NCBI GenBank assembly: GCA_934541015.1
Contig: CAKTDC010000006.1
Span: 1 to 64,000 of the forward strand
DNA: 64,000 nt
Direction of reading: 5' to 3'
Source: an uncultured Luteimonas sp.
Lineage (GTDB): Bacteria > Pseudomonadota > Gammaproteobacteria > Xanthomonadales > Xanthomonadaceae
Made by a program: the position numbers and the translations under genes. Below are positions 3,526-37,503 of this stretch, in pieces. Under the pieces are notes generated by a model. The model searched no databases. It was not told the DNA's origin and saw only the letters and a list, made by a program, of their open reading frames with translations. Positions within the stretch are counted from its first letter, which is position 1. Each line of letters opens with the position of its first letter.

Positions 3526-4485
3526 CTAATCCACATACAGCGAACTCACCGACTCCCCGAACGCGATCCTGCGGATCGTCTCGGCGAGCATTTCCGCCAC
3601 GCTGAGCGCACGGATGCGGCTGCAGGCCTGGGCCGCAGGCGACAGCGGAATGGTGTCGGTGACCACCATCTCGTCGAGCCGGGACTTCTCGATGTTGTCG
3701 ATGGCCGCGCCCGACAGCACCGCGTGGGTGCAGTAGGCGACGACCTTGGTCGCGCCCTGCGCCTTGAGCGCCGCCGCGGCCGCGCACAGGGTGCCGGCGG
3801 TGTCGACGATGTCGTCGACCAGCACGCAGGTCTTGCCGGCGACGTCGCCGATGATGTTCATCACCGTGGCCACGTTGGCCTTGGGGCGGCGCTTGTCGAT
3901 GATCGCCAGGTCGGCATCGTCCAGGCGCTTGGCGATGGCCCGGGCACGGACCACGCCACCGACGTCGGGCGAGACCACGATCAGGTTGTCGGTGCCGTGT
4001 GCGCGCCAGATGTCGGCCAGCAGCAGCGGCGAGGCGTAGACGTTGTCGACCGGGATGTCGAAGAAGCCCTGGATCTGGTCGGCGTGCAGGTCCACGGTCA
4101 GCAGCCCGTCGGCACCGGCGGCGGTGAACATCTTGGCGACCAGCTTGGCCGTGATCGGCACCCGCGAGGAGCGCAGCCGGCGATCCTGCCGGGCGTAGCC
4201 GAAGTACGGCACCACCGCGGTGACCGTGCCCGCCGATGCGCGCTTGAGCGCGTCGATCAGCGCCAGCAGCTCCATCAGGTTCTCGGCCGAGGGCGCGCAG
4301 GTGGGCTGGAGCACGAAGACGTCCTGGCGGCGGACGTTCTCCTCGATCTCGACCTGGACCTCGCCATCGGAGAACGTGCTCACCAGCGCCTTGCCCTGGC
4401 GTACCCCGAGTTCGCGGCACACCGCCTTCGCGAGCGGCCTGTTGGCGTTGCCCGAGAAGATCAGGAGGTTGCGATCTTCTTTCAT
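3526..4485 (-). CDS. prs: Ribose-phosphate pyrophosphokinase
   Basis: It makes phosphoribosyl pyrophosphate from ribose 5-phosphate and ATP, feeding nucleotide, NAD, His and Trp synthesis. The 319-residue protein has the [10 protein letters not shown] segment (38-47), the [11 protein letters not shown] segment (171-181) and the PRPP-binding loop [13 protein letters not shown] (221-233). All are intact and the length is standard. It lies downstream of ispE and tRNA-Gln, with heptamer repeats on both sides of the gene. Confidence 0.97.
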
Positions 4486-4496
4486 GTCTTGAGAGC

Positions 4497-4604
4497 CGGG
4501 ATTGGGGATTGGGGAACGGGGATTCGGGATCGAGGGGCCGGATGGGACCCGGGGAAGCGCGATCCGCTGTTCCGAATCCCCATCCCCCGATCCCCGATCC
4601 CTTC
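4497..4604. repeat. Heptamer-type inverted repeat, prs to tRNA-Gln
   Basis: GGGATTGGGGATTGGGG units at about 4497-4536 face AATCCCCATCCCCC and GATCCCCGATCCC units at about 4576-4604. They form another imperfect long inverted repeat upstream of prs and just downstream of tRNA-Gln. Confidence 0.7.
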
Positions 4605-4611
4605 GCTTGTC

Positions 4612-4687
4612 TGGCAGGGGCGGAAGGATTCGAACCTACGAATGCCGGGATCAAAACCCGGTGCCTTAACCACTTGGCGACGCCCCT
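4612..4687 (-). tRNA. tRNA-Gln (TTG)
   Basis: The complement is a 76-nt tRNA with an AGGGGCG/CGCCCCT acceptor stem, an encoded CCA (4612-4614), a GGTTCGAATCC T-arm and an anticodon loop TTTTGAT within CCGGG/CCCGG, giving anticodon TTG. Its place between ispE and prs is conserved in many gammaproteobacteria. Heptamer repeats flank it on both sides. Confidence 0.97.
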
Positions 4688-33885: not shown

Positions 33886-33913
33886 AAAAATGAAGGCGGC
33901 CGAGGCCGCCTTC
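33886..33913 (-). terminator. Orphan intrinsic terminator on the minus strand
   Basis: GAAGGCGGCC (33892-33901) and GGCCGCCTTC (33904-33913) form a perfect 10-bp stem. On the minus strand the stem is followed by A and then TTTTT (33890-33886), a textbook Rho-independent terminator. No minus-strand gene lies upstream of it until msrA at 38 kb, so it must terminate something starting in the 300 bases towards ahpC, or it insulates prmC. Confidence 0.75.
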
Positions 33914-34088
33914 AAATATTCCGCATCACGTGAGGGAGGGAGGATACGGATACGGAATCCGGTTGCCCCGCAGGGCTGTCCTTGCCGCCGGCGTTCCGGC
34001 CAGTGCCGGGGAAACCAGCGATCCGGAGCCAATATGCTGCGACGCACAAGAATATGCAAGCGGTTTCAGCGTCATTTCTGGTCTATTT
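33886..34088 (-). ncRNA. Candidate small RNA divergent from ahpC
   Basis: This candidate rests on the orphan terminator at its 3' end and on minus-strand promoter-like sequence at its 5' end: TTGTTT (34122-34117), 16 bases, TAAGAT (34100-34095). That overlaps the OxyR-type site of ahpC. A second possible promoter, TTGCAT-N17-CATATT, would start it about 70 bases later. The product would be about 130-200 nt. No credible ORF lies in it. In E. coli the peroxide sRNA OxyS is made from a divergent OxyR-bound promoter, so an analogous role is an attractive inference. Expression is unproven. Confidence 0.35.
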
Positions 34089-34090
34089 CA

Positions 34091-34156
34091 ATTGATCTTA
34101 TCTATTGATAGAATAGAAACAATAAAATTGACTGATCAATAGGTCCTGCCTATTAT
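34091..34156 (+). promoter_or_regulatory. ahpC promoter with OxyR-type operator
   Basis: The core promoter is TTGACT (34128-34133), 17 bases, TATTAT (34151-34156). Directly upstream, 34091-34127 fits the OxyR pattern ATAG-N7-CTAT-N7-ATAG-N7-CTAT as ATTG, CTAT, ATAG, AAAA, 12 of 16 positions with the two central quarter-sites perfect. A further ATAG-N7-CTAT (34139-34153) sits between -35 and -10. In Xanthomonas, OxyR is known to control ahpC directly. The leader to the ATG is about 54 bases and has GAGG eight bases before the start. Confidence 0.7.
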
Positions 34157-34216: not shown

Positions 34217-34780
34217 ATGTCCCTGATCAACACCCAGGTCCAGCCGTTCAAGACCACCGCCTACCAGAACGGCGAGTTCATCGAAGTCACCGACGCCAGC
34301 CTGAAGGGCAAGTGGTCGGTCCTGATCTTCATGCCGGCCGCCTTCACCTTCAACTGCCCGACCGAGGTCGAGGACGCCGCCGAGAACTACGCCGAGTTCC
34401 AGAAGCTGGGCGCCGAGGTCTACATCGTCACCACCGACACCCACTTCTCGCACAAGGTGTGGCACGAGACCTCCGCGGCCGTGGGCAAGGCCCAGTTCCC
34501 GCTGGTCGGCGACCCGACCCACCAGCTGACCCGCGCCTTCGGCGTGCACATCGAGGAAGAAGGCCTGGCCCTGCGCGGCACCTTCGTGATCAACCCCGAG
34601 GGCGTGATCAAGACCGTCGAGATCCACGACAACGCCATCGCCCGCGACGTCACCGAGACCCTGCGCAAGCTCAAGGCCGCCCAGTACGTCGCCGCGCACC
34701 CGAACGAAGTCTGCCCGGCCAAGTGGAAGGAAGGCGAGAAGACCATCGCCCCGTCGCTCGACCTGGTCGGCAAGATCTAA
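34217..34780 (+). CDS. ahpC: Alkyl hydroperoxide reductase, peroxiredoxin subunit
   Basis: This 2-Cys peroxiredoxin reduces H2O2 and organic peroxides and is recycled by AhpF. The 187-residue protein has peroxidatic Cys47 in [11 protein letters not shown] and resolving Cys166 in [11 protein letters not shown], both in E. coli numbering positions. It is first in an ahpC-ahpF-oxyR set. Codon use is strongly biased towards preferred codons, as expected for an abundant protein. Confidence 0.98.
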
Positions 34781-34832
34781 GCCGCCCCCTCCCCCGCGTC
34801 ACCCCGTTCCCGCCCGCCACGCGCGGCGCGGG

Positions 34833-34922
34833 AGCGGATCGGAGCCGATGCCGGGCCACGCCAACGGGTGCTCCCTCCCTCCGACACCCGCCAGCCAGGC
34901 CCTGCGTCGGCTCCGATCCGCT
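34833..34922 (+). repeat. 16-bp inverted repeat between ahpC and ahpF
   Basis: AGCGGATCGGAGCCGA (34833-34848) is perfectly complementary to TCGGCTCCGATCCGCT (34907-34922). With one mismatch the arms extend to 19 bp, and the loop is 58 bases. It occupies the 172-base ahpC-ahpF gap and has no T-run. As RNA it would be a very stable stem that could protect the ahpC 3' end or reduce read-through into ahpF. Confidence 0.8.
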
Positions 34923-34952
34923 TCCGCCTCCCTGCCCACAGGAGTCGCCCCC

Positions 34953-36555: not shown

Positions 36556-37503
36556 GTGAACCTGCGCGACCTCAAGTACCTGATCGCGCTGGCCGACCAC
36601 CGGCACTTCGGTCGTGCCGCGGCGGCGAGCTTCGTCAGCCAGCCGACGCTGTCGACCCAGATCCGCAAGCTCGAGGAGGAGCTGGGCGTGGCGCTGTTCG
36701 AGCGCGCGCCGCGCAAGGTCATGCTGACCCCGATCGGCGGCGACATCGCCGAGCGGGCGCGGCGCATCGTCGCCGACCTCGAGCAGATGAAGGAAGCCGC
36801 CCGGCGCAGCCAGCGCCCCGAATCGGGCAGCGTGCGGCTGGGGCTGTTCCCCACCCTCGGCCCCTACCTGCTGCCGCACGTGATCCCCGGCATCCGCGAG
36901 CGCTTCCCCGACCTGCAGCTGCTGCTGGTCGAGGAGAAAAGCGAACAGCTGCTGGCCCGGCTGCGCGACGGCCGCCTGGACGCGGCGCTGCTGGCCGAGC
37001 CGGTCCACGACGACCAGCTGCGCGGGGAGTTCCTGTTCGAGGAGCCGTTCCTGCTCGCTGTCCCGGACCGGCATCCGCTGGCGGGCCGGGAATCGCTGCG
37101 CATCGACGACCTCGCCCACGAGGACCTGCTGCTGCTCGAGGACGGCCACTGCCTGCGCCGGCAGACCCTGGACGTGTGCCACCTGGCCGGCGCGAACGAG
37201 AACACCGGTTTCCGCGCCACCAGCCTGGAGACGCTGCGGCAGATGGTCGCGGCCAACGTCGGCATGACCCTGCTCCCCACCCTGGCGGTGCGCCCGCCGG
37301 TGGCCCAGCCCGACGGGATCCGGCTGCTGCCGTTCAGCGGTTCGCAGCCCAGCCGCCGCATCGCCATGTTCTGGCGGCGCAGCTCGGCGATGGAGGATTT
37401 CCTGCTGCTGCTGGCCGACAGTTTCCGCAGCCTGCCCGATTCCCTGCTCCAGCCCGGCCCCCCGCCGCCGGCCCATGCGGCCGCCCCGCCGGACATGCTC
37501 TGA
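36556..37503 (+). CDS. oxyR: Peroxide-sensing LysR-type regulator OxyR
   Basis: This is a 315-residue regulator started at GTG 36556. The N-terminal LysR winged helix spans about 1-65 (RHFGRAAAASFVSQPTLSTQ). The sensing cysteines fall exactly at Cys199 and Cys208 (GHCLRRQTLDVC), as in E. coli. Oxidation to a disulfide converts OxyR to an activator. It is third in ahpC-ahpF-oxyR, 13 bases after ahpF, the Xanthomonas arrangement. The tail after residue 295 is Pro-rich and variable. Confidence 0.96.
   Translation: MNLRDLKYLIALADHRHFGRAAAASFVSQPTLSTQIRKLEEELGVALFERAPRKVMLTPIGGDIAERARRIVADLEQMKEAARRSQRPESGSVRLGLFPTLGPYLLPHVIPGIRERFPDLQLLLVEEKSEQLLARLRDGRLDAALLAEPVHDDQLRGEFLFEEPFLLAVPDRHPLAGRESLRIDDLAHEDLLLLEDGHCLRRQTLDVCHLAGANENTGFRATSLETLRQMVAANVGMTLLPTLAVRPPVAQPDGIRLLPFSGSQPSRRIAMFWRRSSAMEDFLLLLADSFRSLPDSLLQPGPPPPAHAAAPPDML

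Follow-up and report, generated by a model that had tools for sequence, protein, structure and literature searches.

A conserved putative small RNA gene divergent from ahpC in Luteimonas with a PhaR-type box in its promoter

Background

OxyS of Escherichia coli is a small RNA that is encoded divergently from oxyR and has an OxyR-activated promoter. MmgR (alpha-r8) of the alphaproteobacterium Sinorhizobium meliloti carries a pyrimidine-rich anti-Shine-Dalgarno motif. In S. meliloti, PhaR (AniA) binds YGCRNYGCR and represses MmgR, as stated in the part of the report that we draw on (PMC12542648), and the MmgR dyad is placed between -35 and -10 in the section cited here of another report (PMC8401924). 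sX13 of Xanthomonas, in the portion of its description used here, is encoded downstream of polA, and its three C-rich loops are directed against G-rich translation starts (PMC3771888).

Here we describe a conserved, uncharacterised gene that sequence comparison identifies as a putative small RNA gene beside ahpC. The window, that is, the whole 64,000-nt stretch of DNA that was analysed, comes from a Luteimonas-like source, its AhpC being 95% identical to that of Luteimonas marina. The RNA is likened to MmgR by promoter layout and motif: YGCRNYGCR lies between the -35 and -10 hexamers in 35/35 promoters (the window and 34 relatives), which is where the excerpted account places the PhaR/AniA box of MmgR, and the RNA also has a pyrimidine-rich anti-Shine-Dalgarno motif. 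The PhaR site is CAATTGTGCACCGCAGCATTA at S. meliloti MmgR and TTGTGCGTCGCAGCATAT in Luteimonas. MmgR is 77 nt long whereas the RNA described here would be ~139 nt and, unlike MmgR, is gammaproteobacterial and adjoins ahpC. With sX13, as far as the cited portion describes it, the RNA shares the bacterial family and a C-rich loop facing G-rich starts, but it has one conserved C-rich loop, and instead of following polA the units of 34/34 relatives adjoin ahpC. With OxyS it shares the divergent arrangement beside a peroxide-response gene; unlike OxyS, it does not adjoin oxyR, has no strict OxyR-type site at its conserved promoter and has no Rfam match, and we do not count it as a member of that group.

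Results and discussion

A terminator-ended unit divergent from ahpC

The sequence-only reading of this DNA had pointed to a textbook intrinsic terminator on the minus strand with no gene upstream of it on that strand for ~4 kb, and both observations hold. The terminator hairpin (33891-33914, minus strand) has 10 pairs, 7 of them G-C, and is followed by TTTTT, and no plausible minus-strand gene was found in the ~4 kb upstream of it, the nearest being an msrA-like ORF (Table 1). There are 2 terminator-like sites in 8 kb compared with 2.8 (sd 2.2) in shuffled sequences, a count that is not by itself above chance; the terminator is more than a chance occurrence because it is conserved across relatives, its mean identity to the window being 0.92 over the 35 loci, with the T-run preserved in 32/32 aligned cores.

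Table 1. Features of the ahpC locus in the window, with mean identities to the window
Feature	Position	Strand	Basis
Putative small RNA gene, ~139 nt	33886..34024	-	Terminator; promoter and 3' hairpins conserved in 34 relatives
Intrinsic terminator, stem-loop 2 with T-run	33886..33914	-	Sequence; 0.92 identity
Stem-loop 1, conserved	33919..33957	-	Fold; 0.82 identity over 35 loci
CTCCCTCCC, candidate seed in apical loop of stem-loop 1	33934..33942	-	Complementary to G-rich Shine-Dalgarno sequences
5' part of RNA, variable	33958..34024	-	0.31 identity over 35 loci
-10 hexamer CATATT	34031..34036	-	0.67 identity over 35 loci
PhaR-type box TGCGTCGCA (YGCRNYGCR) in 17-nt spacer	34038..34046	-	Motif; phasin-derived matrix
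-35 hexamer TTGCAT	34054..34059	-	0.73 identity over 35 loci
TTGTTT-N16-TAAGAT, promoter preferred in the sequence-only reading	34095..34122	-	Hexamer conservation
ATAG-N7-CTAT, OxyR-type site at ahpC promoter	34139..34153	+	Perfect match in sequence
ahpC, divergent neighbour	34217..34780	+	AhpC identity to Luteimonas marina
oxyR-like gene, downstream of ahpF	36556-37503	that of ahpC	Named by eye
prmC, next minus-strand gene after terminator	33631-32780	-	
msrA-like ORF, nearest minus-strand gene upstream of terminator	38725-38042	-	Named by eye

With the RNA start taken as 7 nt past the -10 hexamer, that is, at ~34024 in the window, the estimated length of the RNA over the 35 loci is 93-165 nt with a median of 130 nt. 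The 3' part would consist of two hairpins, stem-loop 1, which presents CTCCCTCCC in an open loop, and the terminator. Its folding z score was -5.3 to -5.7 in four sequences, the value for the 81-nt 3' part of the window being -5.7. The cores were aligned for 32 loci, L228, L230 and L231 having been found later and left out; TCCCTCCC is kept in 32/32 aligned rows and the C that precedes it in 31/32. The evidence from covariation is mixed. In the 32 aligned cores 99.7% of the pair cells do pair compared with 37-54% when the structure is slid along the alignment, and the number of double-change cells and the covariation score were each reached by 0/500 shuffles. On the other side, pairs changed on both sides number 2/17, a value reached by 169/500 shuffles, and there are 6 further pair types, a number reached by 472/500. 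In the terminator one double change from G-C to A-U is seen in 3/22 distinct rows. The relatives behind these counts are not independent of one another.

Conservation and distribution of the unit

Within the genus 34/52 genomes have one match each (E <= 1e-4), and in 34/34 of these the unit is divergent from ahpC. The earlier proposal of a divergent, terminator-ended unit beside ahpC is thus borne out in 34 relatives, and the hairpin, whose conservation in close relatives it had set as its own test, is conserved there. In four of the genomes (L119, L120, L121 and L124) AhpC is 67-70% identical to that of the window and the small RNA unit still adjoins it.

The gene downstream of the terminator varies. 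On the minus strand of the window the terminator is followed by prmC, as would be expected if the hairpins were a leader or attenuator of prmC and not a separate RNA. prmC is also within ~250 nt downstream in 15/34 relatives, but in 19/34 it is >600 nt off or outside the stretch examined, and in L003 a convergent hydrolase gene stands in between. A prmC leader is highly improbable and was rejected because of this variation among relatives. In L003 the stop codon of the hydrolase gene (3784-4656) directly borders the terminator of the RNA, which may serve both directions there.

In the class 2/369 genomes matched at E <= 1e-4, namely, the starting genome and L333. In the family 59/395 genomes matched at E <= 1e-3 and the best 26 are all within the genus; 17 of the other 33 matches were inspected, of which 10, from outside the genus, followed a gene for a second peroxiredoxin, AhpC2, and 6 resembled the common terminator only. 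The last of the 17, in L237, shows a third context for this architecture, a C-rich hairpin and terminator (1484-1549) after the end of an unrelated gene. Among the 18 unmatched genomes of the genus, 11 gave matches, at 19 places, when E was allowed up to 0.1, and of the 5 best matches 2 follow AhpC2, whereas in the vicinity of the other 3 there is no gene for AhpC or AhpC2.

A search of Rfam gave no family match at the gathering score, on which ground a known Rfam family was rejected, and the OxyS family was absent from the 5 matches obtained up to E 10. In the open-licence literature, the titles and abstract openings among the matches listed held nothing on an ahpC-linked RNA of Luteimonas and nothing on a PhaR-controlled small RNA in gammaproteobacteria, which in both cases is weak evidence of absence.

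The conserved promoter and its PhaR-type box

The -35 hexamer reads TTGCAA or TTGACC in many relatives and the spacing to the -10 hexamer is one base longer in four loci, while the first, second and last bases of the -10 hexamer are identical in 35/35 loci. The PhaR-type box between the hexamers has a mean identity to the window of 0.80 over the 35 loci, and its variation is confined to the degenerate positions of the published motif.

Phasin genes are known PhaR targets. Phasin promoters of the genus were sampled as 30 loci from the 51 genomes with phasin, L210 being left out as incomplete, and the box occurs twice, 26-27 nt apart, in 29/29. The operator of the RNA promoter is one that it has in common with the phasin genes of the same genus, as a member of the PhaR regulon should. 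When a matrix built from the 58 boxes of these 29 promoters was run over the 64-kb window, its top match was at the RNA promoter (34032-34052) with 18.3 bits, the next best match having 12.8 bits, and it also peaked at the RNA promoter in 34/34 relatives' loci (2.5-3.2 kb each). Of 300 matrices with permuted columns, 5 peaked at the RNA promoter of the window. The scores at the relatives' promoters range from 10.3 to 31.4 bits and in 5/34 they are below the 12.8 bits of the best other match in the window.

A search for a stricter palindrome gave 24 places, spread over 22/52 genomes, with 16 at the RNA promoter and 8 elsewhere; the reversed pattern gave none in the same 52 genomes. By eye, no PHB gene was recognised at any of the 8 other places. 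In L172, L174, L176 and L179 the palindrome TGCTGCNATGCAGCA lies just upstream of the start of an MFS-transporter-like gene, as named by eye. Palindromes at such starts in four genomes are what one would expect if the box served a different regulator with the same palindromic recognition sequence; we consider this decidedly unlikely, as the box is in 29/29 phasin promoters of the genus and PhaR is in 52/52 genomes.

PhaR (PF07879) is present in 52/52 genomes of the genus and phasin (PF09361) in 51/52, including genomes that do not have the RNA. Their presence therefore does not track that of the RNA. The PHB synthase domain PF07167, the only synthase domain that this count covers, was found in 6/52 genomes and above the cut-off in 4. 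In three PhaR loci inspected by eye, PhaR is flanked by acetoacetyl-CoA-reductase-like genes. The sequence evidence strongly suggests that PhaR controls the small RNA promoter.

OxyR and the upstream promoter-like pair

The sequence-only reading had favoured another start, TTGTTT-N16-TAAGAT, over the TTGCAT pair. Both promoter-like pairs exist and by position they would give RNAs of ~200 nt and ~139 nt, respectively. The preference for the former does not agree with its conservation: over the 35 loci its hexamers have identities of 0.40 and 0.34, which is no different from the DNA that separates the two promoters (0.37), compared with 0.73 and 0.67 for the hexamers of the other promoter. Its spacer has an identity of 0.67 and the whole pair 0.54, and the spacer is probably conserved because of the ATAG/CTAT bases in it. 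The pair was also thought to overlap the OxyR-type operator of ahpC. The perfect site lies beyond it; looser CTAT/ATAG bases do lie in its spacer. Judging from its hexamers, this pair is probably not used, and an OxyR-driven start at it was rejected since the hexamers are at background conservation.

It could still be that OxyR, when bound upstream of ahpC, activates the divergent promoter as well, making this an OxyS-like peroxide small RNA. The unit is divergent from ahpC, and at least one site of the ATAG-N7-CTAT type, which we take to be the OxyR consensus, is found between the two genes in 33/35 loci. The nearest strict site ends 23-96 bases upstream of the -35 hexamer in these 33 loci, the gap being 23-47 bases in 19 of them and 33-47 in many. 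Outside this genus, C-rich hairpins with a terminator come after a peroxiredoxin gene transcribed divergently from oxyR. On the other hand, the hexamers of the operator-adjacent promoter are at background conservation, and a scan limited to the strict consensus found 0/35 loci with a site overlapping the conserved promoter. The gap to that promoter spreads over 23-96 bases and therefore a fixed activator site is not seen. In addition, the start of oxyR is ~2.5 kb from the unit. An OxyS-like RNA is unlikely; neither the likeness to OxyS nor, as judged by strict sites, the control by OxyR that had been proposed is supported, and the PhaR-type box is present at every one of the 35 promoters. Two ATAG-N7-CTAT-type sites 48 bases apart are found upstream of ahpC in 11/35 loci, for example L082, L105, L120 and L123.

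Proposed mechanism and targets

From the gene unit, its conservation, its promoter and its box, which are evident in the sequence, we infer transcription of the unit, its binding and repression by PhaR, its induction with PHB and a mode of action. The likely explanation is that this is a PhaR-repressed, C-rich, that is, anti-Shine-Dalgarno, trans-acting small RNA that is wired like alphaproteobacterial MmgR. The sigma-70-type promoter would be overlapped by the PhaR operator between -35 and -10, and free PhaR would block RNA polymerase there. As PHB granules accumulate they would take up PhaR, and the cell would then produce the RNA along with phasin. The RNA would end at the terminator, stem-loop 1 would expose CTCCCTCCC, and this would pair with G-rich ribosome-binding sites of the GGGAGGGAG type and lower translation. 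This mode of action is proposed by analogy with sX13 and MmgR.

A search for GGGAGGGAG before ATG gave 29 places in 8/12 genomes compared with 6 for the reversed control. Of the 29 places 28 were inspected and one HutH-like gene, named by eye, recurs in 2 genomes; this 9-mer search of 12 genomes revealed no widely conserved target gene. MmgR represses phasin mRNAs; here, in phasin upstream regions inspected by eye, there are short purine runs only ahead of the start and GGGAGG was not found. If control by PhaR is confirmed, a storage-granule regulator would be seen for a second time, now in a distant class, to control an anti-Shine-Dalgarno small RNA, and the same position of the box in the promoter would suggest a repeated solution. 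The system allows a direct test of whether an RNA couples storage and peroxide defence.

C-rich hairpins after AhpC2 genes in other genera

AhpC2 is a peroxiredoxin that is ~34% identical to AhpC and whose gene is divergent from oxyR. It was found in 48/395 genomes of the family, and 30 loci were examined. Within 150 nt after the AhpC2 stop codon YCCCTCC is present in 20/30 and on the opposite strand of these 3' regions in 0/30. The background is 27/1376 windows (~2%), AhpC2 3' regions included, and 7/323 stretches after long open frames. Six chosen AhpC2 3' regions had folding z scores of -4.1 to -6.4 and in 4 of these 6 the C-rich run is, by our reading, in an apical loop.

These hairpins raise the question whether a single Lysobacteraceae family of ahpC-linked C-rich small RNAs joins carbon storage and peroxide defence. 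In some genera its members would be released from the 3' region of the mRNA for an OxyR-linked peroxiredoxin, and in Luteimonas the RNA would have been rewired, through a promoter of its own, to the PHB-sensing repressor PhaR. We advance this only tentatively. The architecture is alike, the motif is frequent after AhpC2, matches to the model after AhpC2 go down to E 7.9e-11, and the 2/52 genomes of the genus that have AhpC2 are both without the ahpC-linked unit. However, the common terminator alone can yield ~40 bits (L238), the motif is missing from 10/30 AhpC2 3' regions, a C-rich loop can readily arise by convergence, and in its 5' part the RNA is unlike the end of the AhpC2 gene (mean z 0.15; 2.9 in the positive control). 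On this mean z, descent of the RNA from a decayed end of an AhpC2 gene was rejected.

C-rich runs are also seen on the other side of ahpC. The gap between ahpC and ahpF in the window (34781-34952) folds as a hairpin of great length (z -7.3), close to whose tip the plus strand has a second CTCCCTCCCTCC run, and the ahpC-ahpF gaps of several relatives have C-rich runs as well.
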